From: Dentipellis sp. KUC8613
Lineage: Eukaryota > Basidiomycota > Agaricomycetes > Russulales > Hericiaceae
DNA length: 64,000 nt
Direction of reading: 5' to 3'
NCBI GenBank assembly: GCA_002286715.1
Contig: NSJX01000017.1
Location: forward strand, 127,654-191,653
Below are positions 16,838 to 58,847 of this stretch, one piece after another. Both the position numbers and the translations under genes were made by a program. Position 1 is the stretch's first letter, and every line of letters begins with the position of its first letter. The notes beneath the pieces are model-generated. The model was not told where the DNA came from and did no database searches. It saw only the letters and a list, made by a program, of their open reading frames with translations.

Positions 16838-19099
16838 ATGCCTTCGCTGACCCCAGATGGCTTCTCGCTCGGGGACGTCCCCTTCATTCGCGAAGCCGGC
16901 ATAGGCGTGCTCGCACTACTCGCCCTGTTCGCCCTCTGGCAGCGCGTCGTGCGCACAAGACTCGATCTCCCCCCAGGCCCTCCAGGTCACTGGTTCTGGG
17001 GCAACACGATCCCCGACAAACAGTGAGATTGTTCACCCGTCTACCGAATGATATTTTGCTTAACTCCGAGGTCTCGGTATTGCGGCGGACAGCTCGTTTC
17101 TGAAGTTCACCGAGTGGACCGAGCAGTACGGCCCTATCTTTTCGCTGCGGTGCGGTCTGCGCACCATCGTCGTCCTCGGGACGTTCCAGGTAAGAGTCAC
17201 GAGCTGCATACTGGTGAAGCCTTCTCATACAACCCGGTACCAGTCCGCGATGGACATCTTGGAGAAGGAAGGCGCGGTATCTGCCGACCGCCCTCGGCTG
17301 GTCGCCGGCGACGAAATGATGTCGGGAAACATGCGCGTCCTTCTTGTCGGTGCAAACGAACGCCTGCGCAGGTTACGGAGGTGCGTCGCGGCCCTGGCTG
17401 CTCGCTTGACGTCATTCCTCACGAGATTGCTGATGCCGGGTGTCCGTTTCATTATTGCAGAGCGCTGCACGCACACCTCCAGCCTAAGGTCGCGGCGACG
17501 TACGAGCCGCTGCAGATGCTCAACTCGAAGGTGCTGATCCGGGACATCCTGGACGACCCCAGCGGGCACTACGATCACGCGAAACGGTACGCGCGTAGCC
17601 CCTTCTGTCCCGCGCCCGTTTCTCATGTCGGGCACTGGCAGGTATGCGGCATCAGTCATTCTGTCCCTCACGTATGGCAAGCCGTCCCCGTCGTTCAAGT
17701 CGGATCCCGACGTCGTCCTGGTCACCCAATGCCTGATGCGCCTAGGCGCCGCTATCCGCCCCGGCGCGCACCTCGTCGAGCACCTTCCTTGGCTCCAGTA
17801 CATCCCGTTCTACGGCAAGACGCTCAGGCAGTACCACCGCGAGGAGCTTGATCTGTTCAGGAGGCAGCTGCGCGAGACGAGGCAGCAGATGGTGATTCAA
17901 TCAGCGGTGATAGCTCGTGTTGACGGGAGAAGCTCACTCGTCACCTTTTCGCAGGCTATGGGCAAGGCGCCGTCGTCCTTTGGCAAGTACCTTCTCGAGC
18001 GGCAGCAGGAGCTCTCTCTGTCCGATGACGAAATCGCGTACCTCTGTGGCTCTATGTTTGGCGCTGGATCAGAGACCGTGCGCCCTTTACTTTTCTGAGC
18101 ACGGGAAATCCCATACTAACTCCTGATTGTCACCTTTCATAGACCGCAGCAGGCATCAGCACCGTGATTCAGGCAGCAGCATGCCACCCCGCCGCACAGG
18201 CCCGGGTGCAGGAAGAGCTCGATAGGGTAGTCGGGCGGGATCGATGTGCGTGCGCTCCCCCAGCCTCACCAGAACCGGCTTATCGATGCGGGGCATGGCT
18301 TTTCTAGTGCCCTCCTTCAACGACCTGGACGACCTGCCCGAAGTGCAAGCATTCTTCCTCGAGACGTTCCGCTGGCGCCCGGGCGCGCCCGGCGGCCTGC
18401 AGCACCGCGCGACGAAGGAGATCGTCTACGTACGTCCCGTGCCCGTCCTTCCCTTCGCGTCTCACGTCCCGCTTCTCCCGCGCGCACCCCTATCTCCCTC
18501 CCTCGCTCTATTGTCTTCGCGCTGACAGCAAGGCTATCGCATCCCCGCGGGCGCCACCGTAATCGGGAACCACTGGTGCGTGTCTGCCCCCCCGCGCGCG
18601 TGCCGGCGACCCATGCTCATCCCGCCTGCAGGTCGATTGGCCGCGACCCTGCGCTCTTTCCGGATGGGAACACGTTCCGCCCGGAGCGCTGGCTCGACGA
18701 GGACGGGCGCATTCGGACGGACCTCAGGTTCCCCAACTTCGGTTTTGGACGACGGTGCGTATTCGGCGTCTGTGCTTTGTGTGCTGCCCAAGCTGACTGC
18801 GCTGTTGCTGCTGCTCGTGTTCGCAGGGTGTGTCCTGGTTCCCCGGTCGCGCAAAGGTACGTGTACGCTCGCTAGGTCCTTGTGCAGCTGCTAATAATAC
18901 GTGTGTACTGTGTAGGTCGCTGTACATCAACACCGCGTGCATCCTCTGGGCTTTCTCCATCTCGCAGGACCCGCTCCGCCCCATCGACACGCTCGCGATC
19001 GGCGAGGGCGTCACCGCGCACCCGCTGCCGTTCGTCGCGCGCTTTGCGCCGCGCCACAGCCCGGACATGATCAAGGCCCTGCTGGCGGAGGAGTCGTAA
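16838..19099 (+). CDS. Cytochrome P450 monooxygenase
   Basis: Microsomal heme-thiolate monooxygenase; the substrate cannot be read from sequence. Twelve exons give 508 aa: 16838-17022, 17093-17189, 17244-17380, 17461-17586, 17642-17891, 17955-18077, 18143-18245, 18308-18429, 18529-18575, 18632-18754, 18827-18856 and 18916-19099. An N-terminal signal anchor (about residues 20-38, GVLALLALFALW) is followed by the LPPGPPG hinge. The I-helix motif is AGSETT (302-307), the K-helix ExxR is ETFR (359-362), then PERW, and the heme loop FGFGRRVCPG has the ligand Cys at about 440, split by the intron between exons 10 and 11. The overall look is that of multi-exon basidiomycete P450s with the CYP2-like LPPGP start. 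All key residues are present, so it is probably functional. Confidence 0.95.
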
Positions 19100-31876: not shown

Positions 31877-32976
31877 ATGCCACCAACAACATGCGCTCCA
31901 CCCGCCTACGACCGAGGGCCCGACTCCTCCGCAGCAGCATCGCCCCCCATCGCGAGCGCCCATGGCCCGCCGCTCCCGACCGCCGACCTGCTCCCCACCG
32001 CGACGCACCTCCTCTCGCTCGCCGCGCACATCGACCCGCACCGGCCCCCGCGCGCCCGCACGCAGCACACGCTCGTCTACCTCGCGCTCTCCCTGCACCC
32101 GATCACACACGCACTACACTTCCCCGTCCCCCACGACCCCCGCAGCTTCACCGCGCTCCCATCCCGTACCCGCCCGTCCTACCCGCCGACCCGCACGCTC
32201 CTCCCGCTCATCGACGCCGCGCGCCTGCCCGCCGCCGCCCACGCGCGCGCGGCGGCCGTCGCAGCAATGCTCTGGCTCATCGCGCACCGGTACGACGCGG
32301 CGCTCGGCGCCGCGCTCGTGTCGACGGCAATCGAGGCCGGGCTGCTGCACGCGCGCATGGTGCTCAAGGAGCACGACGCCCCGGTGCCCGCGCCGCCCGC
32401 CGACACGTTCGCCGTGCTCCGCGCGGTCGCGCGCACGACGCGCGCGATCGTGCGCGCCATTCGACGGCGGCCGCGCGCGCGGCGGTGGGGCGCGTTCGCG
32501 TGTCTGTCGCTGGGGAGCGGGGACAACGATGATGATGAGGGGGACGATGGGGACGGGCCTGTCAGGCGCGGGGAGGAGAACGACGCGGTCGCCGGTGCGG
32601 AGGAGGTGCTGTTGAAGGAAGGACAGGCCGCGTACGACCCCGTGCGCCAGCCGTCCGCTGTGCTGCACCCGCAGGACGCGGTGCTCGTGCCCGCGACCAA
32701 GATGGCTGCGTTCGTGCTCGAGTGCATGATTGAGGACTTTGGCGTCGGCGTGCGCGCGCCCGGGCGGCCGTGTGGCGTGTACGTCCCGTGGGCGGCGCAG
32801 CTTCCGCTTCCAGGTGAGCTGGGGATCTTGTTCTTTGTGTGGTCCGTGATTTGGGCAGTGCTGATCGTGGATGGTTGCGGCGCGTAGTTGTCGAGCAACA
32901 GTATGCGGTGGATCCGGGTGTGCCGAGGATGGAGATGGTTGAGTCTGAGGCTCAGATGGCGACGAGGAGTCAATGA
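31877..32976 (+). CDS. A-domain-only member of the local two-domain family
   Basis: Unrecognised family. Two exons (31877-32813, 32888-32976) give 341 aa. After an Ala/Pro-rich leader the protein carries one A domain: HTLVYLALSLHPITHAL, ARAAAVAAMLWLIAHRY, AALVSTAIEAGLLHARM, an acidic Asp/Gly loop (GDNDDDEGDDGDG), then RQPSAVLHPQDAVLVPATK and FVLECMIEDFGVGV. These blocks align with the C-terminal halves of the three minus-strand genes at 38-53 kb (RRLLVYxALxLHPI, LVSxAVEAGL, QPSALLxxQxVALVPxT). It lacks the B domain, is on the opposite strand, and is extremely GC-rich with Ala/Arg/His-biased composition. The ATG at 31877 is the first in a frame open from 31628. Confidence 0.75.
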
Positions 32977-34883: not shown

Positions 34884-36016
<1,133 letters not shown>

Positions 36017-37168: not shown

Positions 37169-37856
37169 ATGACCACCACTCGCCCCCCTCTCCCGCCCTT
37201 CACGCACGAGAGCGCTACCGGTAAGCCCCTCCTTCTCCCTCCCTCGCCCACCTTCACCCGCCGGTACTAACGCTAACGGCGCACGCACAGTGAAAGTGAA
37301 AGCAGCGCAGAAGCTCTGGAACACGACGGACCCGGCCAAGGTCTCGCTCGCGTACACCGAGGACTCGATCTGGCGCAACCGCGACCAGTTCGTGCGCGGG
37401 CGCGCGGCGGTCGTCGACCTGCTCACGAAGAAGTGGCAGCGCGAGACGCGGTACAAGTGCGCCTTCTCTCCTTCCTCTCTACCCGCTCTTTTTCCTTTCT
37501 AAATCGTTCTGTGCCCGCAGGCTGCGCAAGGAGCTGTTTGCGTTCACGGACAACAAGATCGCGGTGCAGTTCTGGTACGAGTTCTACGACGAGGCGGACA
37601 AGTCGTGGTACCGCTGCTACGGGCTCGGTCAGTCTTCCTCGAGCCCTTTCCCCACCGCCCTTTGCAGACAGGCCTATGCGATGAAATGGAGCTAATATGG
37701 CGCACAGAGGACTGGACGTTCAATCCCGACGGGCTCATGCGCAAGCGCCAGATGAGCGGGAACAACGTCAAGATCGCGGAGAATGAGCGCTGGTTCGCGG
37801 ACGGCGCGACGGACGAGGATGTGGATAAGGTGAATATCACCGAGGCGCACTGGTGA
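37169..37856 (+). CDS. DUF1348/SnoaL-like (NTF2-fold) protein
   Basis: Small alpha+beta-barrel protein of the nuclear-transport-factor-2 superfamily; DUF1348 members are widespread and of unknown activity. Four exons, 37169-37220, 37291-37456, 37521-37627 and 37708-37856, give 157 aa, the usual size. The family blocks are all seen: [96 protein letters not shown] and [12 protein letters not shown]. It is probably cytosolic, with no signal peptide or membrane segment. Confidence 0.92.
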
Positions 37857-38277: not shown

Positions 38278-40762
38278 TCAGAGGGATTCACGGGTGCCCA
38301 GCAAATTAGCACTCCCGCGCCGGCTCGGCGCCGCAGACTTCCTGCCGCCCAGCGGCGTTGCGGTTGACTCGGCTGGCATAGGGCTAGCAGGCGGGCTCTG
38401 CGCTGGGCTCGTGGCCAGGGACGTGATGTCCCAGCTGCCCAGTGCGAAGTTGTCCACGAGCTGCGTGAGAATCTTGTGTGTGAGCCTCGTGCGCGGGACG
38501 AGGGCGACTGTCTGCGTCTGTAAGAGGGCGCTAGGCTGCTTCTTCACGTCGTATAGATATCGCTGCGCCCCGTCGTCGTCGCCGTCGCCGTCATCGCTAC
38601 CACCGCCACCGACCGCCAGCAGCACACGATTCGGCAAGTTCATGACGTCGTCGTCGTGCAGGAACTCCTCCGCCAGCGCCTCCGATCCACCACGCGCAAC
38701 CATCGGGTGTGGGTGCGGGGGTATCTGCGCTGCCAGCTCGCCGATCGCCTCTGGGAGAGTGCAGAGGATCTGGTACACGGGCGCGAGGCTCTCAGGCTTC
38801 TTGTCGGCAGCAGCCACCGGTGTCCCCTCTATCTGCACCCGCGTAAGCCCCGCCTCGACCGCCCCGGACACGAGAGACGCCACCTGCGACTCTGGGAGGC
38901 GCCGGCCGATCACGAGCAGCAGCGCAAGCATCGTGCGCGCGCGTTGGAGCGCGTAGGTCGACGGCGAGCCGTCGACGAGCAGCTTCTCGGGGAGCAGGTC
39001 GAGGTCGGGGAAGCGTGCCAGGATCAAGCTGTATCGCTTGCCCTCAGGCTGGTCGGGGGCCCACCGGGGCTCATCCAGGGTATGCTCGAGGATAGGGTGG
39101 AGCGCGAGCGCGAAGTAGACGAGCAGCCGCCGGCTGCGCGGGCTCGTGAGCTGCTGGTACTGGCCACAGCGGCTGCGAACGTGCTGCAAGAGGGTCGCAT
39201 GGGCCGCATTCCGAGAGGACTGAGGCGCAGTAGATTTTCTAGTTTCTCCGCTGTCGACAGTCGGTGCGGGAGGGCGGTAGATGGCGGTCGTGCCATTAAG
39301 AAGCTGAGTGAACGCTGTCTTTGTGCTCGCACTGTCAGACAGCATGGAGTACAGCGAGTCTGATCTACCCGGAGGGTCATCACTTGATCCTGGCGGCGGG
39401 AAGACAAGGCTTGCTGGCTCGTTGAGAGCCGCAGACGTCATTTGCGGGTCCGTTACGGGACTCGGGGGTTCCACCTCCACCTCCGTGGTGCTCGGTGCAT
39501 TGGGGTGCAACGTAGCCGTGCCCTTCTCTGGAATAGGCGAGAGTGGAGCCGGAGGGGAGTTCGAGGAGGATTCAGCAGCAGGCTCTCCCCTCTCGGTGGA
39601 CGTCTTCGGTGCATGGGAATGAGATACCCTGGCTTGTTTCGCGGAAACCTCAGAGGAGTGTGATCTTGTGAAACCTGGTCGGGCCGGCGCATCTGAGGCT
39701 CCGTCAAGATTATTCAAAAAAACGAATTGTTCCGTGGAAGTGCCGGGTGGCGCTGGTGTGTGAAATAGTTGCAAAGGATCTGACATGGAGGCCCCGCCCT
39801 GTGATCCTGCGTTGTCCGCAGCCATCAAAGACTCGGCTGGTGTTCCAGAAGGTGATTTCGTCGGCTTAAATATCCCAATCACCCTGCTACTTAAACGCCT
39901 CCCCACTTTTTTCTTCCGCGAGGGATGCTGGGTTTTGTCGTCGTTTTTCGGCTGCGTGTTCCTTAAGATCAAGCCATCTGGGAATGGGCACTGTCAACTG
40001 TGTGTCAAGGGGAAAGTTGCATGAATACTCACTGGGCTGGGGTAAGAACCCATTCCAGCACGCATTGTCACGGAGTTCGTGGATGTTGGTGACGCGGTTT
40101 CCGACGAATAGGTGGCTGACGAACCACTCCATCAACAGCTTTGTTACAGAATTCACGGGTCTGATGATCTCGAAGCCCTGCGAGTAGAGGAGTATGGAAG
40201 GGGCCTCCGTCACGTCGTATTGCAGGCATCCATCACCGCCGAGCAGATTCTCGAGCGAAGGTGTCAACGCGTGTGATGCGGAGTTGGTCGAAATTCGCGA
40301 GCGCGTTGCATTGAGGACGGTATTGAGTGATTCGGGGAGGGGCGTCAGCAGAATCTCCGCAAGGTCTTTCATGAATTCCTGGTAGTTCCCTATGTACCTC
40401 CCTTGCGGCAACCCCGAGGCGACAGCCTGGCTGACGAGAGCGACGATGTCTGGCTTCTGCTGCATATTCAGGGTTTGCACGATTACCCAAAGCGTGAGGA
40501 TCATGATCTTCGCTCGCAGCCCGACCGACCCATAAAGTGTGACATCGTACAGGACCGCTAAATCCTTCGGATATTTCCAGAGGTTGCAATAATCAAGACT
40601 TTCAAGCTTCGGCTCGACCGGTGTAGGCGGACGGCTGTATTTGAGAGCGGGGTGGCTGGCTAAGGCCTCGTACACATCTTTCTTTTGCTGATCTAGCCCC
40701 ACTGCGTGTCGAGCCCTCGAAGTGGGCGCAGTGGAAGTGTCGGAGATGGTGTTAGAAGCCAT
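38278..40762 (-). CDS. Two-domain (B+A) family protein, copy III
   Basis: Unrecognised family; no function assigned. Exons 40762-40033 and 39977-38278 give 809 aa. The B domain fills exon 1: DVYEALASHPALKY, RAKIMILTLWVIVQT, VALVSQAVASGLPQG, LLTPLPESL, APSILLYSQGFEIIRP, LLMEWFVSHLFVG and CWNGFLP just before a phase-1 GTGAGT donor. Exon 2 encodes a basic, Ser/Pro-rich linker (HPSRKKKVGRRLSSR, many SP sites). The A domain follows: RRLLVYFALALHPILEH, RARTMLALLLVIGRRLP, ASLVSGAVEAGL, AAQIPPHPHPM, an Asp/Gly acidic loop, KKQPSALLQTQTVALVPRT and LVDNFALGSWDI. There is no signal peptide. I chose the ATG at 40762 (MASNTISDTS); the frame is open further upstream to 40990, but that part is less protein-like. 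Confidence 0.85.
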
Positions 40763-42056
40763 GGGTCCCAATGCTGCTGTTGCTGAGACTTGTAATAACG
40801 GGATCACTCTTGGCTCGATGAAAAAGATGGATACTGCGCACCGGAATGGTTCGTACGAATGCGTCCGGCGGAGGGTTGTGGACAACGAAAACAGGTGTGG
40901 AAAATGTACAAGCCGGTGACGGTGATGAAAGAAGGTAAGATAAGGGAACCTGTGTTGTATGCGTGTGCGATGAGGAGACTTGATGATCAACCCTTTTCCG
41001 GGAAAGGCGGCAGGAGAAGGGAAGGGCGTCGTAACCTAGTATAAGGTGGCCTGCGAGTCGGTACCAATCGCAACAGAGGAGAGGGATAATTCTACACGAA
41101 AGTAGCAGATATCGTGGGCCGCGGCATCGACGTAGCGCAGAAACGACAAGAGAGGCTCTTCCGCCTCAGCCCCTGTCACATCTCACGCCATTGTACTGCA
41201 TCTGATGGAATACACTTCCTTTTAGGAAGACGGAAACCTGAGATACGTCGGAATATTGTACTTCTGAATGTATTTTGATAGGTCGAGAACAGGCAGATGC
41301 TAAATGCAGTACTCACAGGATAGCCGCTGGAAAACGGAAAGAAGGCGGAACACATATATAGCATCACACAGCCTAGGTGTGCTATCATTGGATCCATATT
41401 TCCTGATTTCTAGAGATGAATCATCCGTAGCACCTCCCTGAGCTTTGTATTGTGATGAGATTGGCTGGTGGTTGACTTACATGAGGCGGAGTGACAATCA
41501 TCGGAAGTTTAAGCGAGAAAGATACGAGTGTTCTGTCCTTTAGCAGAATACGTAGCATTCAGAGGTTGTTAGCGGCAGCTGGTCGTTTACGCGAGATTGC
41601 GCCAACGTGTCAAGTCAAAGGCGAGGTACGCGCGGCGGCTGCCGCTGCCTTGAATACCGGCCGCCGGCCACGCGTCAGATGTTATGGAGGGATGACATGA
41701 CTATTGTACACATTTCCATGTCTGCCACACCATGATAAATATACCTCCTTATACCGGAGACAGAATGGTATTTCAAGGTCTCCGACCTACAAGCACCTAT
41801 GATGGAACTTTGAATAGTAATGTTCACATTGGTTCGCTTTCAATGGCGACTCGGAGACTAACTCGAAATTGAACATTGTGAACAGGTCTGACCATACGAC
41901 CAAAATGACTGATTACTATGCATGTGTGGAGCCGCTGCCGGCGATTGTAGAAGTACATCGAAGTGATTTGAAGTAATGCAGCACGAAGGCTGGCATGGAC
42001 GGGACAGCTCTATCTTATAAACAACATGAATCTGTATCCTCTGTAATCATCATCAT
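40763..42056. other. Intergenic spacer of family cluster
   Basis: Contains a stretch near 41330-41360 (ACGGAAAGAAGGCGGAACA) matching 48015-48035 upstream of copy II (ACGGAAGGAAGGCGGAACA). This indicates that the flanks were duplicated with the genes. No independent gene is supported. Confidence 0.55.
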
Positions 42057-43070
42057 CTATGATCTGTTCGCAATAGCTCTGTCCTTGAATTCTTCCAATG
42101 TTGATTCCCTCGTCCTGAACAGACTAGTCTCATCAAAAGTAGAGGAAGGTAGGAATCTCCGGCAGCTTACGTTCTTTTCCTGGATAGACCGTACTTTGAG
42201 CCAGCTCTGTTCAGCGGTGGACCTACAAGTAGTCATAACTCATGAAATCACACAAGAATCATACGGGATATTGCTGTACTTGCCTGGGGGAAAGAACGCA
42301 TTCCAACAACGGTCGTTATCATGGTCCTCTACCCTGTCGATCCGTTTCCCAATGGATAGCTTCTCGGTAAACCACAGAAGTGTGAGGTGCGAGGGAAGGT
42401 TCTTAGGAGCGATAATAGGGCTCATCGGAACTTCAGCTTTCTGATCAGTGAGCAGGAGACTCTGCGCTGCGCACGCGTCGTAGACGATCGTCCTTGTGCC
42501 GACGAAGGAGCTATTGAAAGACTCTTCGAACTCTTCAAAGTTGAACAGCTTGTGTGTGTGTTCTGAACGCAGTTCTTCGAGAATCTTCTTCACACGGGAC
42601 GGGAGTGGTGTCCGTAAGGTGTCTGCGAACCTGTCGACGAACATCTGAAGATCACCAATCCGGTACCTCGGTTCTTCTTCCAGGCTCATCTCGAGTGCTG
42701 TGCTAATGAGTTGGCGACAGTCCGATTTGGTCGCCTTCGTTTCGTGCGCGATTATCCATAGCGCCAGCATTATTATCTTCGCCCTCGCCCCAGGTTCCGC
42801 CAAAGCAGACGCGTCGAAGAATATCCTTTGCGAGGGATAAAGCATCTGTGTATCGGACCCCTTCGAATGATCGAAGCGCTGCCATGGTGGGTTCCACGGC
42901 TGAAGCGGCTTGACGTGGTTCAGCGCAGGATGCTTCGCCAGTATTTCGTATGCATCGGATTTGAGAGTTTCCCATTCGTTCTTCCGCTTTTGACGCTTGT
43001 GAACGATACCGGAGAAAATGCTGTGCAGTTCATGGATGACCTGGCCCAGTCCTTTGAGGCTGAAAGACAT
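42057..43070 (-). CDS. B-domain-only family protein (copy b2)
   Basis: Exon 1 (43070 to about 42284) carries one B domain: an N-terminal amphipathic helix (MSFSLKGLGQVIHELHSIF), AYEILAKHPALNHVKP, RAKIIMLALWIIAHET, QLISTALEMSL, TLRTPLPSRVKKILEEL, LTLLWFTEKLSIGKRI and CWNAFFPP. There is no A domain. The 3' end is uncertain. A perfect GC-type donor (AG|GCAAGT at 42283/42282) keeps the phase-1 position used by all paralogues and gives a ~280-aa protein. A GT donor 4 nt later gives 318 aa with a longer hydrophilic tail stopping at 42057. Coordinates use the longer option. Upstream flanking DNA matches that of the B-only copy at 48.8-49.8 kb. Confidence 0.75.
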
Positions 43071-44535
43071 CTAAAAATAATGGAAGTGATTTTTGGTGTC
43101 AGGGTGGGCACGGCTTGATCTTCGAGCACGAGTAGACGCACCTGCGACTTTCCAGTTCTGTGCGATAAGCGTTAGACAACGACACGTAGCCTTCCGGCAG
43201 GAGCGAGCTGGACGGCAGCCAATGAGTCGTTGATACACGAACGTATATCGATGATAAAGATACCTACGGTGAGGGAAAACAAATGGACAAGGAACTGCCG
43301 ACCGTACGGTTAACGATGAGGTCGTGAAGAGCCTGGAGGCTTGTCAGAAGGAGACAAGCTTCGGCAGCCTAGCGGAGGAAGGGAGCATGTAGTGTATCGG
43401 GAGTCTGAGGGAATGGGAAAGAGCAGTGAAGAGTGCGCACGGACACATCGACATCGGAACAAGAAGGTCGGAGTATTTGTCGTATCACGTATGTACAGAT
43501 AAGGCACCACATTGGAAAGATTGTTTCCTCTGTGCATGTCTATACGCTTTAGGAGACTTATGGTCAGATTTACATACCCACGAGCCAACAGGAGTAAGCG
43601 TACCTTGACGGATCTGTCACCTTTTCAAGCAGGAGCGCTGAAATCATGGGTAAACGTATGAATCGAAGCCGAAGACGTTGTTCGGAAATTGGTACCGTCG
43701 CGGAGTATGGGTAACATCTCGCCAAACTATGAGTGCCGAGGCCTCGTGTCAAGTTTGCATTAGTAGCAGCACTGAATAGGTTTTGGATAGTGAGTGAGCG
43801 GCGCGAACAGTCAACTGGACCCGTAAAACGAGGAACTAGCTGAAATATCACTGCAATGTACATACCAAGGACTCTAGCGCAAACGCGACCTGCTTGGGTT
43901 CACCAACACCACTACGGCGTGTGGCACAAGGGATTCTCCCCTCTTCCGCCGATTCTCCGGTGTGGATGAGCGCGGATCGAATGTAGTTATGTACTCTTAT
44001 GAAGGAGCTTCTTACGTCTACATGTTCATGATCAAATTCACGGTGCACTCTTGATACGAGCCATGCGAGGAGGCGAATATGTCGTACTACTGCGACAAAT
44101 TCTGTTGGCACCGATCCCTGTCCTCCGCGAACCCAGTGGCACCGACACAGAAACGGCAGCGGCGGGGGAAGAGGTTCTAGCATGCTGTCAGCTAGAAATA
44201 TGGGAACAGTGTCGAGATCGTAGAGGGCAAACGCCGATACGCGAATAACCTGACGGACAAGAGGTTGGATAATGTGAACTTCACTGGCGCGCATTGATGA
44301 TAGAACAGGTCACCGCAAACCGCGCAGGGAGGGTGTATAGACAGTAGAAGGTGAGTTGAGAGAAGACGATCTGAGGCTGAGGCTGAAAGCAAGCATGTAA
44401 GATCCTGAGACGCGGGGCTAACGGTACCAATATGTGGTAGATCGAAATCAAACGTACGACAGGATTTGGACCTGTGTTCAAAATACAACGAACCTGACCC
44501 ATTCCCGGTAGGCTGGTACGTATGCGCTGTAATAT
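43071..44535. other. Duplicated 5' flank of B-only gene
   Basis: 43180-43800 is recognisably similar to 49900-50520 (for example GGGAAAGAG..., GAGTGCGCACGGAC, AGCGTACCTTGACGG and GCCTCGTGTC appear in the same order). No separate gene is supported; it may contain 5' UTR exons of the B-only gene. Confidence 0.55.
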
Positions 44536-47489
44536 CTATACTACGACACACGCCTGATCCTCATCCCCGTCGCGCTCGCGCCGCGAGGCGGATTCTTCAA
44601 GGATCCGTGAATCGGCAGTTCCGCGCCGCCTCAGCATATGGGGATTTCTCTTCTCCTGCGCCTTTGACGACGTCCGCTTCAGGGTATCTGTAGAGAAAGA
44701 TGGACGAGGGCTTGCGGATGTCAGTGGGGGCGCGACATCCCAGCTACCGAGCGCAAAGATATCGACGAGGTGTCCGAAGACCGTGAGGGTGAGCTTCGTC
44801 TGTGGGACAAGAGCGACTGTCTGCGGACGCAATAGAGCGCTCGGCTGCTTCTTGACATCATATAGACGTCGTGCCATGCCATCCTCGTCCCCGTCGCTTG
44901 CGAGCAACTCGCTGTCCTGCGTGTTTATGATGATGTCGTCCGCCCGGAACTCCTCCACTTTTTGCTCTCTGTCGCCGAGCATCCCGCCGCGCGAATGCAT
45001 CGGGTGCGGATGCGGAGGGATTTGCGTCGCGACTTCGTCGATCGTGTCTGCGAGCACACAGAGGATACTGTATAGCGCCCGCTGTGTGCTCTTCTCGGTC
45101 TCGCCTTCGGGAATTGACGCCTCGCCGTGGATCTGCGCCTGCATGAGACCTGCTTCCACCACGCCAGACACAAGAGACAGAATCTGCGACTGTGGGAGGC
45201 GCATGCCAACGACGAACAAAAGGCCGATCATCGTGCGCGCACGCCTATACGGGTAAGGCGGCTCTAGATCGCAGACAGTCTGCTGCTCCCGATCGGCCTC
45301 GTGTTCTGCCTCGGCCAGCCGCTCCAGATCGTCGAATCGTTTCAAGGCTTTGTTGAAGAGCTTCGCCTGGTAGGGTGTCCACTGAGGCTGGGCCCGAGCG
45401 TGGTCGAGGATGGGGTGAAGAGCGAGTGCGGAGTAGACGAGCAGCCGCCGGTTCTTTGCCGTCATGAGCTCCTCCTGTGTGCTGAGATCGCGGACGCGTC
45501 GCAGGAGGGCCGCATGGGCAGGGTCGACTTCTGCTTGTTCTGCGTTTGTCCGCTGAGCCTCCTCTCCGTTGCTTGCAGCTCGCGTTGGGGGGCGGTACAC
45601 AACGCCGGTGTCGCTGACAGGCTGAGGTGACGCGGCCCGTGGAACCCCATCTCCCGTCGATAGGAAGCTAGACGAGCTCTGCGAGCGGGCGTGGGAGGCA
45701 AAATTAATATCGAGGGCGGGCGGCGCTGCCCCTTCGACCCCTGGAGTCGACGGTTGTCGGACCCGTATCATGCCGGTTTCCTGCGATTGGGAGTTCGCTC
45801 TCTTGGGGAAAGTGCGCCTCCAGGAACGGGACTCAGCCGCATCGACGGGGGCGGATCCATCACCAGCTGCCTTCTCTGAAGATGGCGAGCGGCCGATGCT
45901 TGTTAATCGCTTAAGAACCGTAGGCACCTTCTTCAAACCTGAATCCGGGGTCGCTGGTTCTAAACTCACGTCCGGCACATTCGATGCCTTGGCTGTGAAT
46001 TCTGTGTCCTTAGTCCCAGGGGACGGCATTCGTGGAGTCGACGGTGGGGTCGCGTGAGGAAATTCGGCGATAGACGCTAGCTCATCGGAATTTGGTGTCC
46101 TGGGCGTCTGAACGTGCGACGCGACAATCTGCTCCGGATGAACCGCAGGGGAGAGTGATCTTGTGATTCCGAGCGAAGCTACGTGTGCCGTTTCCCCTAG
46201 ACTTCCGGTGGGAAGGGACTGTCCTACACCGGTAGGCGTCGTCGGTGTATATGCATCCACGAAAGACGATTTGGATATCCTTCGTAGCCCAGCGAGACTG
46301 CTTAACCTTCTTCGCAGCCCCTGGCCTCTGTCTTCATCTTTGGCCTCCAATCCAGTTGATGCGGGGACATTCGTACCTAGGCGCTATCAGTACGATGTCG
46401 AATAGTGCTGCATAGTCACTCACTTGACTGAGGTAGGAAAGCATTCCAGAACGCCGTTTTATCTAGATCGTGGAGATTGACGACGCGCTTGCCAACGAAT
46501 AGATAGCCGATGAACCACTCCATCAGGAGCTGGGCGGCGCTATCTGTTGGTTTGATGATTTCGAAGTCTTGTTGGTAGAGTAGCACGGAGGGCGAGTTCG
46601 TAGCGCTATAGTTAAGGCAGTCTTGAGATCTAAGCAGATCCTCTAGCGACGGAGAACGAAGAGCTGGAGCGTTGAGATCTGGGAGGTGAATGGCGGTGAT
46701 AATGTTCTCCAGGGGCTCTGGAAGGGGCGTCTGGAGAATCAAAGCAAGCTCCTTCATGACCTCTATGTAGTCGCCGACGGACTTGCCTTCCGGTAATCCC
46801 TCGGACGCGGTCTTGCTGACGAGTGCAACGAAGTCCGACTTCCTCTGCATACCCAGCGTCTGCCCAATAATCCAGAGCGTGGTCAGCATGACCTTCGCCC
46901 GTAGGCCGACCGACCCATATAATGCGGCATCAAAGAGGAGCTCCTGATCTTTCGGTACCTTCCAGAGGTTGCAGTAATCAAGAATTTCGAGACTTGGCTC
47001 CATTGGAGTGGGCGGATGGCTGTAATTAAAGATGGGATGGCTGGCCAGAGCCTCGTAGATGTCTTCCTTCTTTGGATCCCGCTTCACGGTGCGTCTCATC
47101 CTTGGAATGAATATGAGAGCAACGTCCGTGGTGGCATCCCCGATAAATTCACGAGCACCGTCTGTTGCGTTACCAGCGGCGTCCTTTGCGTTACCGGCAA
47201 CAGTTATAGCGCCGTCGGCAACAGCTTTAGCACCTTCAGCAACGGCTTTCGCACCATCGGTGGCACTGTCAGCGACGGCTTTGGCGCTGTCGGTGACGGC
47301 TTTGGCACCATCAACGACGGCCTTAGCACCACCAGCGACGATTTTGGTGCTACCATCAGCAACAGCTTTGGCGCTATTTGTGACGGCCTTGGCACCACCA
47401 GCAACAGCTCTGGCACTCCCAGCGACGGCTTTGGCACTACGGGCCGACGCTTGGGCACCCCCAGGGACGACGGCGGCAAAACGACCCAT
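44536..47489 (-). CDS. Two-domain (B+A) family protein, copy II, with Ala-rich heptad repeat
   Basis: Unrecognised family. Exons 47489-46424 and 46376-44536 give 968 aa, the largest member. The N terminus (about residues 17-115) is a low-complexity alpha-helical stretch of about 12 heptads (SAKAVAG, GAKAVTN, GAKAVVD, GAKAVAE and similar). Then the B domain: DIYEALASHPIFNYS, RAKVMLTTLWIIGQT, VALVSKTASEGLPEG, SPSVLLYQQDFEIIKP, LLMEWFIGYLFVGKRV, AFWNAFLPQ. A phase-1 intron leads to a long Ser/Thr/Pro-rich linker (TPTTPTGVGQSLP and others). The A domain closes the protein: RRLLVYSALALHPILDH, RARTMIGLLFVVGMRLP, LVSGVVEAGLMQAQIHG, TQIPPHPHPM, KKQPSALLRPQTVALVPQT, LVDIFALGSWDV. The ATG at 47489 starts right before the repeat. 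Confidence 0.87.
47178..47460 (-). repeat. 21-nt tandem repeat encoding AKAVADG-like heptads
   Basis: On the coding (minus) strand a 21-nt unit is repeated about 12 times with point variation, one eight-residue unit and one short unit. It encodes Ala/Lys/Val/Asp heptads at the N terminus of copy II and is absent from the other family members. Confidence 0.85.
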
Positions 47490-48832
47490 GATTTTTCAAC
47501 GCTGGCAGGCATCCTCGATTACATTGTCGTTCGAAGGGAATATAGATACAACTTACCAGGGTAGGAATTTTGAACGTGGTTCACAAAAGCTGGGACAGTA
47601 GGAGGATATTTCGACACACTGTAACCGGCGGCAGAAGGCGATGAGAATGGCCAGGTGGTGTTTCTGACAGGGCAGGCGAGACGAAGAGCGTTGACAATCA
47701 ACCTTCGGCTTGAAGACGATCGACCAACGGGGAAAGGCACGATAAAAAATGAGCCGCCTGATTAGGGCCAGGTCTGTTACAACAAAGATGCGACGTATGC
47801 CGGAATATGCAGCGCGAAGATAAGCAGGACCGCGGGTTTGACGCGGCACAAGATCGACCGAGCATACATTCTAGGAATCATTTGACCTGCCGCACGATAT
47901 ACATAGTCGATGAGCGTCCTCCACTCAATCAGAATTTGAGCTCACCGTACTTCTGAGCATGTTTGACAGTTCAAGAAGAGGCGGATGCAGAAGAAGGCGC
48001 TGGGAACGACCACCGAAGGATGAACGGAAGGAAGGCGGAACATAGGATTGGGAGATAATCGCAGTTCAACTGAATCAGATGCATCAGGTTTCCCAAGAAC
48101 AAAGGGCACACAGATCAGAATTTGAAGTCGTGTGGTACCTCTGAGAGTTCTATTCTCTGAAGATGCTCGTTCGGAACGAGAGCGCGTGAACGGTGGGACG
48201 GTATCCGCCTGGGAGTCCAAGCTGGCCGTCGTCGTTTACTTGGTTCATTGGTGAGTTTGCCTTTACAGAGAATGTGGTCAATAGCTGGAGGGCCCCGTGA
48301 GCACTAATTGTCGCTGTGAAGATAGCCTGGAATTGAAGGTTTGAAGCAAGATTGAAGACGGTCACGACGCGTAGGTCATCACACCGTGACTTGACACCGT
48401 CACGGTCGACCCACGTGCGCTCTGTTGTCACCACGATGAGTTGAAGTTCAGAACGAAACCCACCAGGTATACACGGAGAGCTAGTGGCGCCCGCATCTCA
48501 AAATCAGACTCAACCCCGTAAACCTACTCGCGGAAAATAATATACTTAAAAATGGTATGGCAATTGGTATCCTCATACGCGCCATAGTATGGCATGGCTA
48601 ACAGTTTGGAAGGAAACACATGATTTGACCATAATCCAATTCCGATTCTCGATCCTCACAAACAATCTGAGGCAATTAAATCCCATGTACATCACGATCC
48701 CCACCTGCAATCGATTCGTGAAAAGAACGCCTTGGCACCATGACGATATTCTGGTCAAGCTTTAGTTTCCTCAGACGAGGGCCATCGTCCCGAGCTGCCG
48801 GTGTCCGATCTATATCACAAAGGTGAGCAGAG
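47490..48832. other. Intergenic spacer of family cluster
   Basis: Upstream of copy II. Shares short blocks with the upstream region of copy III (see 41.3 kb). An open minus-strand frame at 48434-48150 is protein-like, but I cannot connect it to neighbours. Confidence 0.5.
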
Positions 48833-49796
48833 TCAAGTGGTGATCGAGGCGACCCACGTCTTTCTTCTGAATGAAACCGCCAACTTAGGGCGCATAGTCG
48901 GCGTATGTTTACCATCACTCAATCCTTCCGTTTGTGAGGATGGTGAGTTCACCTGCGGGACTGCGAGGACTCTATGAGGCTGAGATAGACAGAATAGAAC
49001 CGGCGTGCATACCGGGGAAGACTGCATTCCAGCAGATGCTGTCATCGTGGTCGTCTTCCTTCACCACTCGCTTCCCGATGTACAGCTTCTCGGTGAACCA
49101 TAGCATCAGAAGGTACGAGGAAGGATTCGAGGGAGCAATGATAGGGCTTGTCGCATCTTCGATTTGGTTCTCAAGCAAAGTATTCCGACCCCTATGCACG
49201 TCAAAGTCAATCACCTTCTTGTCCTTGAAGGCCGTATTGAACTCGTTGCGGAATCCCTCGAAGTCGATCGTCTCCCATTTGTGCACTGAACGAAACTCGT
49301 CGAGGATTTTTTTCACGGGGGATGGAAGGGGCGTCCGCAAGGTCTCTGCGAGCCGGTTGGTGAATTCTTCGTACTTCTCGATGTCGTCCTTCGATTCCTC
49401 GGGGAGGCCCGATTTGAGCGCCATGCTGACCAGGTGGCGACAATCCGATTTGGAGGCCTTCGTCTCCTGAGCAATAATCCACAGCGCTAGCATTATGACC
49501 TTCGCCTTATCCCCAATGTCCGCCAAGGTAGAGGCGCCGAAGAAAACTCTCTGCGAGGATTGGGAAAGGACTCGTTCATCGGAGCCCCTAGAATAATCAA
49601 ATGGTTCCCAAAAAGGCTTTGAGCGCCGGGGGGGCTTGACGTGCTCGAGCGCGGGATGGTTCGCTAGCACTTTGTAGGCGTCGGATCTGAGAGAATACCA
49701 TTCTTCCTTTCGTGTTTCGCGCGACTTCGTGAACGCGGACACGATGTTGAATATTGCATTCAGGAACTCGCCGACACCTTGAAGACTGAAACTCAT
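48833..49796 (-). CDS. B-domain-only family protein (copy b1)
   Basis: Exons 49796-49013 and 48960-48833 give 303 aa. Its N-terminal amphipathic helix (MSFSLQGVGEFLNAIFNIV) is closely related to that of copy b2. Then AYKVLANHPALEHVKPP, DKAKVIMLALWIIAQET, HLVSMALKSGLPEES, LRTPLPSPVKKILDEF, LLMLWFTEKLYIGKRV and CWNAVFP, with a phase-1 GTATGC donor at the family position. The second exon adds a short basic hydrophilic tail (SSQTEGLSDGKHTPT, LAVSFRRKTWVASITT) unrelated to the A domain. An alternative acceptor 8 nt further on gives a shorter tail (273 aa). Confidence 0.8.
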
Positions 49797-50896
49797 CTGA
49801 GAATAGAAGTATGATAGTAAACAATAAGGATCCGAGGGCGATTTCTCTAGGTACCATGGGACGCACTGCTATGCTGCTTTGCTTACACGATAGGCGTTAA
49901 GTGGCGGTAGCTGATTCGTAGGGGACAGGGAGCTGGATGATACAGAACGATAGTCAGGCGTATGTGAGGGTACGATCGCAGGGGGTGCTCACGGCGTGCG
50001 GAAAATTACTGGACCAAGATCCAGAATCGGTATAGGTCTGAGGAACGATATCGTCCACGATGCGAAGACTCACAGAAGGCGACGAGCCCGTACGACACAG
50101 CGCAGTGACGGGAGGCTCGATGGTAGCACAGGTCGTGGGGCAAGGGGGATGGGAAAGAGGCGCAGAGAGTGCGCACGGACGCAATGGCCCTAGGAGACGA
50201 TGCCTCCGCTTGTCGGAGTCAATCAACAAAACTATTACCTACGACTGCATGACAGACACCAGAAGGGTGTCACCGGGGAAGATTCTTCCGTGCGTGACCA
50301 TACGCCATATATCAGACTATTTCTCACTTGGGAAGATAGTGTCAGGTTGAGGTGCCCGAAGCCAGCAAGAGCAAGCGTACCTCGACGGAGCTGCCTTTCC
50401 GCCGGCGATTGTGAGTCTTCAGCTTGTAGTGGGCAGATGAATAGAAGTTGGAGACGGAAATAGCACCGTGGCAGGGTTTAGTAGTCTCCTGCCAGACAGT
50501 TAGCGCTGAAGCCTCGTGTCGAAAGGGTCTTCAGGCGATTGCGTGAGTAACATGGTGGGCGGAAGTCGACGTGGAGTCCATTGAAATCATTGCCAGCGCT
50601 GGCATCAATACGCCGCCACCAAAGTACATTGCAGCTCACTCGGCCAACGGCACGCAGGATTTAGAGGTATTCAGTCTGATATCCAGGGAAAGCTGTGACC
50701 GACGGCCTTGATCATATTCCTATAAGTTACGAATATAACATGGGTATCCATATACGAGCAGCTTGTTCGTCAATCAACTAGCAGAAACGTAGATTACAAT
50801 AGAAAGACGCAACTCCTAGACCACGATGGCGCTCAGCGCCAACTTGACAATGTCGACAGGCGGGGCGGGGCTTCTTCATATCGCATACCACCGACC
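49797..50896. other. Duplicated 5' flank of B-only gene
   Basis: Paralogous to 43.1-43.8 kb (shared blocks in the same order). No separate gene supported. Confidence 0.55.
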
Positions 50897-53340
50897 CTAC
50901 GCGGCCACATACGCATATTCGAACATGTGTGCAGCCTCCACCATCGCGGCGTCTTCTGGCACTCTTTCGACAACTATCCGTTTGACGAAGCCGCTGGGGC
51001 GCGGGGCGCGATATCCACTGCTCTTCAAGCCTATCGGAGCCGGATCAGGGCCGTGGTGGCCGAGCTCGGACACCGTCTGCCTGTCCCGCCGGGGATCGAC
51101 GTCCCAGCACCCGATCCCGAATTTCGACGTCATGCACTCCATGACGGCCTTCGTAACGCGCGTGGTCGGGAGCAGCGCGACGGGCTGCGCGCGCAGGAGC
51201 GCAGAGGGGCATTGCTGGATGTTGTATTCGGACGCGCGCGCGCCGAGGGAATGTTTCGCGAGATGCGAAATGCGGATAGGTTCGTCGGCGGGATCCTTGG
51301 CTATGGGCACTGCGGAGACGACGACTGGATCCTTGCTCAGATACTGCTTTGAGAGATTCGCGCGGATCGCCACCTCGTCGACAATGTCCGACACTGCGCA
51401 GAGAACGTCGTACGACGGCACCGAGTTGGGGATCTGGTAGATCGACTGCGCGTGCTTGAGGCCTGCCTCGACGGCCGTCGAGATGACCGAGATGAGCTGC
51501 GTCTCGGGGAGGGAGAGCCCGATCACCCACAGCAGCGCCAGCACGGTGCACGTCCGCGGGTGCGTGAACGACGCGAAGTTCGTGGAGGACCGGAACAGCA
51601 GCTCCTTGTCGAGGTCCACGAAGAACTGCGCGATGCGCAGGATCCAGTCCGACGTGTGGGACCCCGCCGACTTCTCTTTGAAGTCCGTCCGCAGAGCGTG
51701 GCCCTGCGGCATGAGGTCTGTGATCGGGTGGAGCGAGAGTGCGAGGTACACCAGGAGGCGTCTGTCGTGCGCGTTCGCGGATTCTATGTTCTTGGACAAA
51801 CGAGCGATCTCCTTTGCCACCATCACCTGATCCGACAGACCGTCCTTCATCGTGCTGACCATCCTGGTTCCTGCATGCTGTCCTTGCTGTTTCCCTTCGA
51901 GCCTGGTGAGATACAAAGCCGCATGGTCGCCCGCCCATAAAGGCACTGCTGGCAAAGGCGGGGCAGTCTCCGATAGAAGGCCCAGCGTAGACTCCGATTT
52001 GCTCCTCCGCACGCTCACCGCTCTGAGTGGAGTAGAGACGCGAGGCCCAGAACCAGGCCCGCTGGTTCGGCTGGAGTTTGAGCCAAAGGCCTCGAACCTC
52101 CGCACTCTCAAAGACCGCACCTCCTCTCGCAGGCGTTCGCTTGAAAGGTTCCCGTGCCTGTAGTGCAGGCTGTCCACGGAAGACGCTCTTGTCATTGAGT
52201 CGTCAGCAAGCAAATCTCGTGATGCGAATGACCGAAATTGGGAAGGACGCGTAGTAGGGCGACGCTCTCCGGACGAAGTAGCTCCTCGTGACGAGGAGGG
52301 CGGCGGCGGTGGAGGAGGAGGAGGATGCTGTGGGGAAGAAGAAGACGGTGGAGGCGATGGTGGTGGTGGTGGTGGTGGTGGTGGTGGTGGTGGTGGTGGC
52401 GGCGGCAAGGAAGGTGGCGGCGGAGGCCCAGGTGACAACGAAGACGAGGCTGGCAGTGTCACAGGAGAATGAAGAGACTTATTATCTAGGCTCCCATCCT
52501 CTACGCTCCCGGTCAACGCTAACACACGCGTCAGAAAAGCGGACACACGCCTACGAAACGAAGGGGGAGAAACTTACTGGGAAAGTATGCCGCCCACCAG
52601 ATGTCCGTCCCGCCATTTGCCTTGATGCGCTGAAGGTGGGCGCGGTTGAGGATAGGACAGCCCAAGTAGAGTTGTTTCGTGAACCACAGCATGAGACGGT
52701 AGGTCGACGGGTTCTGCGGAGCGAGGACATCGACGTGCTGCTGATGCAGAAGCATCGAGGGCGAGAGTCCCGCGTCGTATTCGACACGCCGGAACCCTCC
52801 GAATGACCTGCGGAACAAGCGAAGGAAGTCCTGGAAATCGCGAGGAGAATACTGCGTGCAGATGCCGTCAAGCATTCGGTCAACCGGGTGCGGGAGGTCG
52901 GTCTTGCACATCACGACGAGTTCCTTGAGGAGCTTCGTGTACTTGCTAATATTTTCCCCCGGTGGCAGTCCACTCGCGACCGTCTGGCTCACGAGGGTCC
53001 GGACGTCAACCTTGTCCTTGACGGTGTACACGATTACCCACAGCGCCAGCATGACGATGCGGGCCTTCGTGCCGACCTCGCCCCGCCACGCCGCGTCGTA
53101 GAAAAGATGCCCATGGTGCGGCACCTCTGAGTGCTGCGCATAGTCCAGGCTCTCCCACTTCGGCTCGACGGGGTACGGGGGGTTCATGTGCTCGAGAGCC
53201 TTGTTATTCGCGAGCGCGGCGTAGAAGTCGTCCTTCAGCTTGTCCCGCTTCACGCGGCGGCGCTGCCGCCACTTCATGAACGCCGAGACGGACTTCGTGA
53301 ACTCCCTGAGGATGCCGGCAATGTCGAGACTGGCCGCCAT
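50897..53340 (-). CDS. Two-domain (B+A) family protein, copy I, with poly-proline linker
   Basis: Unrecognised family. Exons 53340-52578 and 52518-50897 give 794 aa. The N-terminal helix is MAASLDIAGILREFTKSV followed by a basic cluster. The B domain: FYAALANNKALEHMNPP, KARIVMLALWVIVYT, TLVSQTVASGLPPG, SPSMLLHQQHVDVLAP, LMLWFTKQLYLG and WWAAYFP, then the family phase-1 intron (GTAAGT...TTAG). Exon 2 opens with a proline-rich linker (about residues 285-330, runs of up to 16 Pro) and a Ser/Arg-rich region. It ends with the A domain: RRLLVYLALSLHPITD, TVLALLWVIGLSLPETQ, SVISTAVEAGLKHAQ, QQCPSALLRAQPVALLPTT, CMTSKFGIGCWDV. The A domain looks more divergent here than in copies II and III. The poly-Pro could bind SH3, WW or profilin-type partners. 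Confidence 0.85.
52357..52399. repeat. GGT trinucleotide repeat coding poly-proline
   Basis: About 14 uninterrupted TGG/GGT triplets on the + strand encode the longest proline run of copy I on the minus strand. Such a tract is length-unstable. Confidence 0.9.
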
Positions 53341-54391: not shown

Positions 54392-54615
54392 CTCTCATTC
54401 AGCGACGGTGGCCGCCACGGTCTGCATATTGGCTGCGCACCTATCAGAACTGACCACCTTTAGTACCACATACCCCCAAGCAACGGTAGCACACGATCCA
54501 CCAAGCACGAGCCGCGGGCACACCTCCCGCGTGTCCGAATTCGCCGCCAGCACAGTGCTGATCTCCTAACCTCCGCCACTTCTATCACCTTACCACCCCG
54601 ACCTCCGTTCATACG

Positions 54616-56171
54616 ATGCCTGCACAGTCGACGTTCACGCCTGACGACAAGGCAAAGATCAAGTCTTCCCTCCCGAAGACATCCAACAAGATCCTCACCG
54701 CGGCGCTCGTGCGCATCTACTATGCTTACCCGTCCCCGTCCGCGTGGTCGTATGCAGGCCTGCAGGGTGCGCTCGCCTTCGTCGCGGACAAGTCCAAAAA
54801 CGCGTACTTCCTGCGCCTTGTCGATATCACCGGCACGCGGGGCGTCGTGTGGGAGCACGAGCTGTGGGAGGGCTTCGAATACAACCAGGATCGCCCGTAC
54901 TTTCATTCATTTGCTGGTGATGTACGCCACCTCGTCTATTTTCCCTATACATCCTTCTCATAACCTCTCAATAGGAATGCATGATCGGCATTGTCTTCGC
55001 AGATGAAGGCGAAGCGAAGACTTTCCACAAGAAAGTGACTGTACGCAAGGACCTAGCGAGCGGGAGCACAAAAGGTACATTCACGTCCGTCAAATCGTAT
55101 GCATCCACTAATCCCATATATTCTTCACCTACAGCCAAAAAGACTGGTTCCTCCACACCAACAACTAAGAAGAAATCAGGCTCCCGCATCGACAAATCGC
55201 TCATATCAGGCCCAACGCAGGGCTCATTCAAGCACCTCGGGCACATGGGCTACGATCAAGACCACGGCTTCACGAGCACGGGCGTCGACCCGTCCTGGGG
55301 CGCCTTTCTCACGAACCTCGAGAGCCACGGGATCGACTCGGGCACGATCGCGGAGAACATGGACTTCATCAAAGGCTTCGTGCGCGACGCGCAGAAGTCC
55401 AGCGCTGCCGCACCCGCAGCAGGTGGCGGTGGGGAGAAGAAACGGCCCCCGCCCCCACCTGCGCCGCGCCGCCCCGTGTCGCACATGCCGCCGCCCGCGC
55501 CGCCCTCGCACACACCCTCGGCGCCATCCACGCCCAGCGCGCCCACGCCCCCACCCGCGCCGCCTATGCGCGCGCCCCCTCCACCTGCCGCACCGCCCCC
55601 GCCCCCGGCGCGCGCCTCTCCAGCTCCGACGCCGCCACCGGCGCCTCCCAGTCGCGTACCGCCTCCCCCCTCGCGCCCTCCGGCTCCGCCATCTCGCCCC
55701 GCAGCTGCGCCGCCTCCGCCGCCTCCACCTCCCGGCAGGCCTGGGGCGCCTCCACCTCCGCCTCCGCCACCTCCGACTGGCGGTGCGCCTCCTCCGCCCC
55801 CGCCACCTCCACCTCCTCCACCTCCCCCCGGTGGATCCGGCGCTCCGCCGCCACCCCCGCCTCCACCGCCTCCAGGCGCACCTCCACCGCCCCCAGGCGC
55901 ACCCCCGCCCCCGCCTATGAATCTACCCGCGCCGCAGCCCGGCCGCTCCGACCTGCTCGCGTCCATTCAGGGCAAAGGCATCCACTCGCTGCGCAAGACA
56001 GACGGTGGGCCTCCCGCGCGCGCGACGCCGCCGCCGCCGCCCCCGCAGGCAGAGGAGAGCGGCGCGGGCGGTGGAGGCGATTTGACGGCTGCGCTGGCGG
56101 CGGCGCTGTTGCAGAGGAATAAGAAGCTGGGCGATAGTGATGAGGAGGAGGATGAGGAGGAGTGGGATTAG
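54616..56171 (+). CDS. WASP/Las17-type actin nucleation-promoting factor
   Basis: Activates the Arp2/3 complex at endocytic sites and the cell tip. Exon 1 is 54616-54921; exon 2 starts at 54975. A WH1/EVH1 domain begins the protein (residues ~15-130: LTAALVRIYYAYPSP, FVADKSKNAYFLRLVD, WEHELWEGFEYNQD, FHSFAGDECMIGIVFADE). A CRIB/GBD-like motif follows (ISGPTQGSFKHLGHMGYD). A ~200-residue poly-proline region comes next, then WH2 (RSDLLASIQGKGIHSLRKT) and an acidic C-terminal tail ending in Glu-Glu-Trp-Asp, the Arp2/3-binding Trp. A 60-nt in-frame segment at 55075-55134 (GTACAT...CTACAG with CTAAT branch point) is probably a second intron; removing it gives 480 aa instead of 500. Confidence 0.94.
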
Positions 56172-57565: not shown

Positions 57566-57940
57566 ATCTCCTGATTCGCTTGTGCGTGGTGGATTTGTGT
57601 ATTCATGTATCTGTGGTGATTGGACACGATCAGCGTGACTCGGATACCTTCGGATACCGAACCTATGCTATGATCTTCTTGGACTGGACCTTGTATTCTT
57701 GTATTGGTGTAGTATGCTCGTAGATGTTGTATGAGTATAATTTCGTGTCGAGGCGATCGTTGTTGGATGTGGTGGACTTGAACTTCGCCTTATCATGTGC
57801 GCTACAGACGCCACGTTTGAACGTTCGAATATCGGACGACCAGCGACCTTCAGGTTAGCTCCATCCAAGATCGTGTAGCAGAAAAGAGAAACGATTGCAT
57901 TGATACAACACACAAAATAGACGACACGACTGCCTCCCCA
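57566..57940. other. Convergent 3' spacer
   Basis: 3' flanks of two convergent genes. Nothing else seen. Confidence 0.5.
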
Positions 57941-58847
57941 CTAATCCATCCTCGCCTTCAGCGTTCTCGACACGACCTTGTCGGGCGTACTGCAAACCAA
58001 ACCAAATCAGCACACCAACGCCCAGGGAGAAAAAATAAACCAGAAGAAACACGCACATCACATGCACGACCGCCCCCCAGCCCGAATACGCATCCCGATC
58101 CACCGCATTCAACAACGTCTGGCTGATCGTCTCAAACAGATCCTCAGGGCCCAAATCCGGCTCCCACAGGCCCTCGGCGACACCAAACAGCTTGTCCGAC
58201 GCGGTCCCCGTGACGATGAAGTCCTTCGCGAAGTTGAGGCAGCCGATGACGTCCGCGCCCGCGATGAACGGGCGGTACTCGGTCGTCGGCGCGCTGCCGT
58301 CCGCGGGCGTCGTCGTGACGGGCTCGAGCCCCGCGATGATGGGCTCGATGAAGTACGGCCCGAAGCGCCGCTCGTAGAGCGTCGAGGAGACGAGGTGCGC
58401 GAAGGCCTGCGGCGAGATGGCGCGCGACTCTTTGATCGTGTACATGTTCACGAGGAAGCGGAAGCGTTCGCGCCTGCCGGGGCGCGGGTCAGCGTGATCA
58501 CCTCGTATGCAATGAAAGTTGAGTATACAGAGTCTCGACGTCTGTTGCGAGGCCGCACAGGCCGATGTAGAGTTGCTCGGAGACGGGGAAGATCTGTGCT
58601 TTCGTCAGTGTGCAGCGGCGGAGTATGAGCCGCAGTGCGCACCTTCTCGAAGTTCGTCGCCACTGTCAGAGCCTGGTTTCCGAGCCGCAGGTCAGACGCG
58701 ATGGCGACACAGTCTTTGCCGACCATCGCGATGACCGAGCCTCCATTCAGTTCCATTGCCTACAAGCATAACGAAACACATTAGGTTAACGGCTTCGTTC
58801 TTGAGTCGACCTCAGCTAGGCCGTATCTGGGTCGCAGCACGTACCAT
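57941..58847 (-). CDS. PUP3: 20S proteasome subunit beta-3 (Pup3-type)
   Basis: Non-catalytic beta-ring subunit of the 20S core particle. Exons are 58756(or 58759)-58643, 58593-58529, 58473-58057 and 57989-57941, giving about 214 aa. Family features: ELNGGSVIAMVGKDCVAIA at the N terminus, DLRLGNQALTVATNFEK, FPVSEQLYIGLCGLATDV, FRFLVNMYTIKE, FGPYFIEPIIAGLEP, GADVIGCLNFAKDFIVTG, FETISQTLLNAVDRDAYSGW and the tail VVHVITPDKVVSRTLKARMD. There is no propeptide or N-terminal catalytic Thr, as expected for beta-3. The start is either Met at 58756, or a one-codon exon (ATG at 58847-58845 followed by GTACGT), splicing to GCAATGGAA and giving 216 aa. Confidence 0.93.

Follow-up and report, generated by a model that had tools for sequence, protein, structure and literature searches.

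We describe a gene family of the fungus Dentipellis sp. KUC8613 (order Russulales, family Hericiaceae) that is real, conserved and previously undescribed, and whose duplication history is readable from its members. Its largest group is an array of five minus-strand genes at positions 38278-53340 of the window, the whole stretch of 64,000 nucleotides analysed here (bases 127654-191653 of contig C61; the genome comprises 34.1 Mb in 171 contigs), and its proteins contain two regions, B and A, which sequence comparison shows to be copies of one domain. The family is ordinary in kind and undescribed in detail; genomes of this sort commonly contain helical families lacking a description. Its members delineate a domain not described before, for which a domain duplication, a likely gene fusion and a block duplication can be traced within one fungal cluster, with a shared intron as marker of the domain duplication, and they allow several annotated 'hypothetical proteins' to be joined as one family. 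As to function we lean, with considerable reservation, towards an intracellular family that would have arisen from one helical domain (~220-270 residues) by fusion and block duplication and whose B+A proteins would act as adaptors. KUC8613 is a white-rot fungus studied for the breakdown of aromatic hydrocarbons, as stated in passages of PMC10470841, which cite Park et al. 2019 as the genome paper.

The gene array and further copies in the genome

Five minus-strand genes with the composition B+A, B, B+A, B, B+A and an A-only gene at 31.9-33.0 kb had been proposed in an original prediction made from the window sequence. Gene models spliced by hand from that sequence confirmed all six and gave exact coordinates, the array spanning from the stop codon of G1 (38278) to the ATG of G5 (53340) and being transcribed in the order G5 (B+A), G4 (B), G3 (B+A), G2 (B), G1 (B+A):

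38278-40762, minus strand: G1, B+A, 809 residues; exon 1 (B) 40762-40033, intron 40032-39978, exon 2 (linker and A) 39977-38278
38404-39207, minus strand: A domain of G1
42167-43070, minus strand: G2, B only, 280 residues; exon 1 43070-42284, GC-AG intron 42283-42223, exon 2 42222-42167
44536-47489, minus strand: G3, B+A, 968 residues; exon 1 (Ala-rich repeats and B) 47489-46424, intron 46423-46377, exon 2 (linker and A) 46376-44536
44719-45519, minus strand: A domain of G3
48833-49796, minus strand: G4, B only, 303 residues; exon 1 49796-49013, intron 49012-48961, exon 2 48960-48833
50897-53340, minus strand: G5, B+A, 794 residues; exon 1 (B) 53340-52578, intron 52577-52519, exon 2 (polyproline linker and A) 52518-50897
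51077-51832, minus strand: A domain of G5
31877-32976, plus strand: A-only gene, 341 residues; exon 1 31877-32813, intron 32814-32887, exon 2 32888-32976

The array introns are 47-61 bases long, four of the five being GT-AG and that of G2 GC-AG; the acceptor of exon 2 of the A-only gene is our choice among several candidates. The hand-spliced G1 and G3 are identical, letter for letter, to the deposited proteins DENSPDRAFT_193382 (P0001) and DENSPDRAFT_193431 (P0003), and the motif blocks noted in the original prediction are conserved in the alignments of A and B.

Identity among the array copies ranges from 30 to 57% for B and from 32 to 53% for A. As even the closest copies are only 57% (B) and 53% (A) identical, the array is not an assembly duplication, which rules out the single-copy assembly artefact that the original prediction had raised against itself. 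The same divergence, the two models that equal deposited proteins, the orthologues in a second species and a ratio of nonsynonymous to synonymous substitution rates (dN/dS) well below 1 (see below) leave an artefactual origin, from chance open frames or from assembly duplication, virtually refuted.

Six-frame searches of the genome with the B domain, the A exon, the C45 protein (see below) and the A-only domain, in which the best candidates were scored so that the counts are lower bounds, revealed at least eight genes with seven B and six A domains. Two B+A genes lie outside the array, one on contig C45 and one on contig C123 (referred to by their contigs), the C45 copy corresponding to the deposited protein DENSPDRAFT_838555 (P0004, 762 residues). 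Five of the eight genes thus encode B, a Ser/Pro-rich linker and A, two encode B only, and one A only. No convincing further copy was detected in the window or in the C45 and C123 loci by tblastn and a profile scan; beyond the known window genes tblastn gave at best E 0.061 over 45 residues, which was taken as chance.

A and B as copies of one domain

Having been introduced as a two-domain family, the proteins turned out to carry two copies of one domain. B and A of G1 are 31% identical in a BLASTP comparison (E 5e-4), and the B and A profiles align in hhalign with a probability of 96% and an E of 1.9e-9 over 188 columns. The profile score of 99, obtained with 9 B and 8 A sequences, compares with a maximum of 17.5 among 30 column shuffles and with 13.2 for the reversed profile.

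Searches of open reading frames (ORFs) with hidden Markov models (HMMs) gave the same picture in both directions. The B HMM matches five separate A ORFs at E <=5e-6, the best reversed ORF reaching 1.5, and in the C45 ORF, where both domains are present, it finds A weakly (independent E, i-E, 0.016). The A HMM matches five of the six separate B ORFs at E <=3.2e-4 and the B domain of C45 at an i-E of 0.0029. The sixth B ORF, G4, is matched at 0.05, which alone would not count since reversed ORFs reach 0.16 with this HMM.

The gene structures, with intron phases taken from the KUC8613 genes, also link the two regions: of the 13 domain copies, 10 are directly followed by a phase-1 intron, namely every one of the seven B domains and, among the six A domains, those of the A-only gene, C45 and C123. 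In G1, G3 and G5 the A domain ends earlier, inside the last exon, and lacks this intron. Profile comparison and shared intron together show, at the level of sequence, that A and B are one domain that was duplicated, and in the tree A and B separate before the present copies of each.

Relatives in other organisms

Two proteins of Dentipellis fragilis, EVG20_g8719 (P0002) and EVG20_g8506 (P0005), are members of the family, as are the deposited counterparts of G1, G3 and C45; all five are named hypothetical proteins, and no Pfam domain is listed for them. In three protein searches covering 5.8 billion sequences, relatives outside KUC8613 were found only in D. fragilis among the matches listed. 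One of these searches, with 1318 candidates, missed P0001 and P0003, which are present in the database at ~31% identity to the query domain, implying that it would also overlook equally distant relatives from other fungi. With the B domain as query, no relative was confirmed in viral or prokaryotic contigs.

The family resembles taxonomically restricted (orphan) tandem families in forming a tandem array, in having no known domain and in having relatives seen in one genus only. Such families are defined by lineage restriction, however, whereas the search used here misses relatives at ~31% identity. We consider it quite unlikely that the domain is new, with a fold of its own, and confined to Dentipellis or close kin, in which case B-linker-A would form a paired recognition module with the single-domain paralogues as partners or decoys. 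No publication naming the family was found, as judged by title or the start of the abstract; literature matches to 'EVG20' alone seem unrelated by their titles.

Duplication history

In the trees G1 pairs with G3, and G2 pairs with G4. The D. fragilis proteins join individual members: P0002 groups with G3 (82% identical in B, 81% in A) and P0005 with C123 (88% in B, 83% in A). Provided that these trees are correct, the duplications that separated G1 from G3 and C45 from C123 are older than the split from D. fragilis, in which no sequence corresponding to G2 or G4 was found. Taken with the gene order G4-G3-G2-G1, the trees suggest that a pair of one B-only and one B+A gene was duplicated as a block, giving rise to G4-G3 and G2-G1. 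We also compared the DNA upstream of the two B-only genes:

43071-44535, minus strand: DNA upstream of G2, two stretches of which match the DNA upstream of G4
49797-50896, minus strand: DNA upstream of G4, matching the DNA upstream of G2

The two common stretches score 40.1 bits, the best of 20 shuffles reaching 31.9; these spacer controls were mononucleotide shuffles, which are an easy control. The repeated duplication assumed in the original prediction is supported.

Selection and a possible role in recognition

Fast divergence, as expected of recognition or conflict genes, had been the second part of that proposal, and it is not supported. In seven pairs of KUC8613 paralogues dN/dS is 0.13-0.35, a rough estimate as dS (1.0-2.9) is near saturation. 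In the two orthologous pairs with D. fragilis the domains are 81-88% identical and the linkers 65-68%, figures that stand without a general species divergence as baseline. The low dN/dS and the stronger conservation of domains than of linkers between species indicate that the domains are under purifying selection overall.

These data bear on another reading, in which the array is a tandem store of diverged paralogues sensing non-self in allorecognition or defence, with the single-domain copies as decoys. The tandem arrangement with loss or gain of domains would suit such a role, as would the position of the C45 copy, which adjoins a TPR-CHAT gene on a contig holding five of the 18 CHAT matches of the genome. 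Nonetheless we regard it as unlikely: apart from the dN/dS values and the conserved domains, two members have 1:1 orthologues in D. fragilis, no NACHT, HET, CHAT, HeLo or Goodbye domain occurs in the family proteins, and none of the 18 CHAT and 10 NACHT matches of the genome lies on contig C61. For a recognition or conflict role we thus found no evidence; a recognition role would matter more if true, but it is not favoured by the present data. A genome-wide search for HET gave no match in KUC8613, nor did it give one in the control genomes.

Compared with fungal NLR and allorecognition proteins, as they are presented in sections of PMC9815663, the family is likewise multi-copy, helical domains occur in both, and one copy (C45) adjoins a CHAT gene. 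It differs from them in having no NACHT, HET, HeLo, Goodbye or CHAT domain and in being under purifying selection.

Searches for known domains and structures

No Pfam or NCBIfam family was matched above the cut-off by the proteins, the domain alignments or the consensus sequences emitted from them, in agreement with the earlier impression that the family contains no recognised domain. The Pfam scans covered nine ORFs of the array and the A-only gene, P0001-P0004, P0005 and two C123 ORFs, and in this set there was also no match to NACHT or NB-ARC, by which fungal NLR/STAND proteins are recognised. HET (PF06985) was matched by none of the family proteins or domains, and, searched at E up to 10, none of five B and four A domains matched the HeLo and Goodbye-like Pfam models. 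WH1, WH2 and FH2, which would mark WASP or formin proteins, are absent from the family proteins, the WH1 of this region belonging to a neighbouring gene.

Weak matches to DUF3038, SpoVIF, Blr models, Vps4_C, TOR1L1_N and TrbL, each in one member, were treated as chance. A search of PHROGs gave nothing better than E 0.1, and the best matches to solved structures searched by sequence had E 0.36 and 3.6 for the two alignments. Troponin C, matched by the B consensus (best E 0.028), was rejected after profile comparison with WH1 as control; the B profile aligns with the calmodulin-like exon of the window at a probability of 1.2%, and no EF-hand was found in the Pfam scans. In G3 a coding 21-bp minisatellite at 47195-47439 gives rise to an Ala-rich repeat of seven residues, which is shorter in D. 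fragilis P0002. The Ala-rich repeats of these two proteins alone are matched by LbR_Ice_bind, below the cut-off.

An AlphaFold2 model of B based on eight sequences is mostly helical (mean predicted local distance difference test score, pLDDT, 52.5; residues 101-140 at 80-84; predicted template modelling score, pTM, 0.52), but the fold search yielded no usable match (best Foldseek E 3.8). From the model we conclude that B is probably largely helical and draw no further conclusion on its fold.

Given the helical model, the domain may instead belong to a known helical family, such as that of a fungal cell-death domain or a repeat-protein domain, from which it has diverged past recognition by sequence and whose mode of action it would share. 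This is possible, if not probable: the end of the C45 protein resembles helical repeats by eye, and an alignment of eight rows, all close relatives, tests remote homology poorly, whereas no Pfam match rose above the cut-off, not even when consensus sequences were searched at E up to 10, and the Foldseek result offers no candidate.

Protein features and a putative adaptor function

Across the five array genes, the A-only gene, C45, C123 (partial) and the D. fragilis proteins the highest 19-residue mean hydropathy is at most 1.66, and no clear signal peptide is seen by eye. Since hydrophobic residues, Gly, Pro and Trp make up most of the invariant columns of both regions, no catalytic set is seen. 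The seven linkers are 109-291 residues long and Ser/Pro-rich in the six for which the composition was taken. Runs of at least five prolines occur in G5, C45 and C123, i.e. three of the five KUC8613 B+A proteins, and in P0005, their lengths being 5-16. Five of the seven linkers (G1, G3, P0002, C123 and P0005) carry RRxS, a motif resembling a PKA-type phosphosite, 20-28 residues into the linker.

As to origin, two neighbouring single-domain genes, each with a domain exon and a tail exon, would have fused, the tail exon of the first becoming the linker, and a B+A gene would later have been duplicated together with a B-only neighbour to give G4-G3 and G2-G1. On the features above, namely the hydropathy and missing signal peptide, the lack of a catalytic set and the properties of the linkers, we base a mechanism that we hold weakly. 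Each B+A protein might be a two-headed intracellular adaptor in which a disordered linker connects two helical domains that, without any catalysis, bind either partner molecules or one another. Docking and control might take place at the linker, and the single-domain paralogues could be partners or competitors of the B+A proteins.

Several observations weigh against this history and this function. The position of the G5 B domain in the tree is unsupported (0.147), and the G4-G3 and G2-G1 spacers share one stretch at 32.8 bits, which is borderline. G1, G3 and P0002 have no more than 2-3 prolines in a row, the C45 linker has no RRx[ST], and this motif exceeds shuffled linkers nominally in two of seven cases only (C123, P 0.005; G3, P 0.044). 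The model of B is poor by its pLDDT and pTM, that of A unusable (mean pLDDT 40.0), and the fold searches gave no usable match; the adaptor mechanism itself has no direct support and no known partner domain.

The proline runs might alternatively point to actin, the polyproline linkers binding profilin or SH3-type domains and acting with the WASP-like protein whose gene, containing WH1 and PBD, lies directly upstream of G5. We judge this very unlikely, as G1, G3 and P0002 lack runs like those of G5, C45, C123 and P0005, the neighbourhood of a single gene is a weak argument, and no WASP gene was found beside the C45 or C123 copy among the scanned ORFs.

Neighbouring genes

The WASP-like gene (54562-56171, plus strand) is the next gene upstream of G5 and is divergently oriented, with WH1 in exon 1 and PBD and a long proline-rich region in exon 2. 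The other side of the array is occupied by a DUF1348 gene and an EF-hand (calmodulin-like) gene. Pfam matches to other genes of the window are as follows:

12087-12698: hydantoinase B
17538-18095: cytochrome P450
27660-28436: GH12
35334-35771: EF-hand (calmodulin-like)
37173-37499: DUF1348
57858-58604: proteasome subunit

Residues 640-762 of P0004, the C45 protein, form a tail that resembles ARM/HEAT repeats by eye and has TOR1L1_N (E 0.12) as its only Pfam match; the tail of P0005, the orthologue of C123, differs from it. The TPR-CHAT gene next to the C45 copy lies at 7700-10000 of locus L021 on the minus strand, and an F-box gene is located near the C123 copy (6921-7349 of locus L022).

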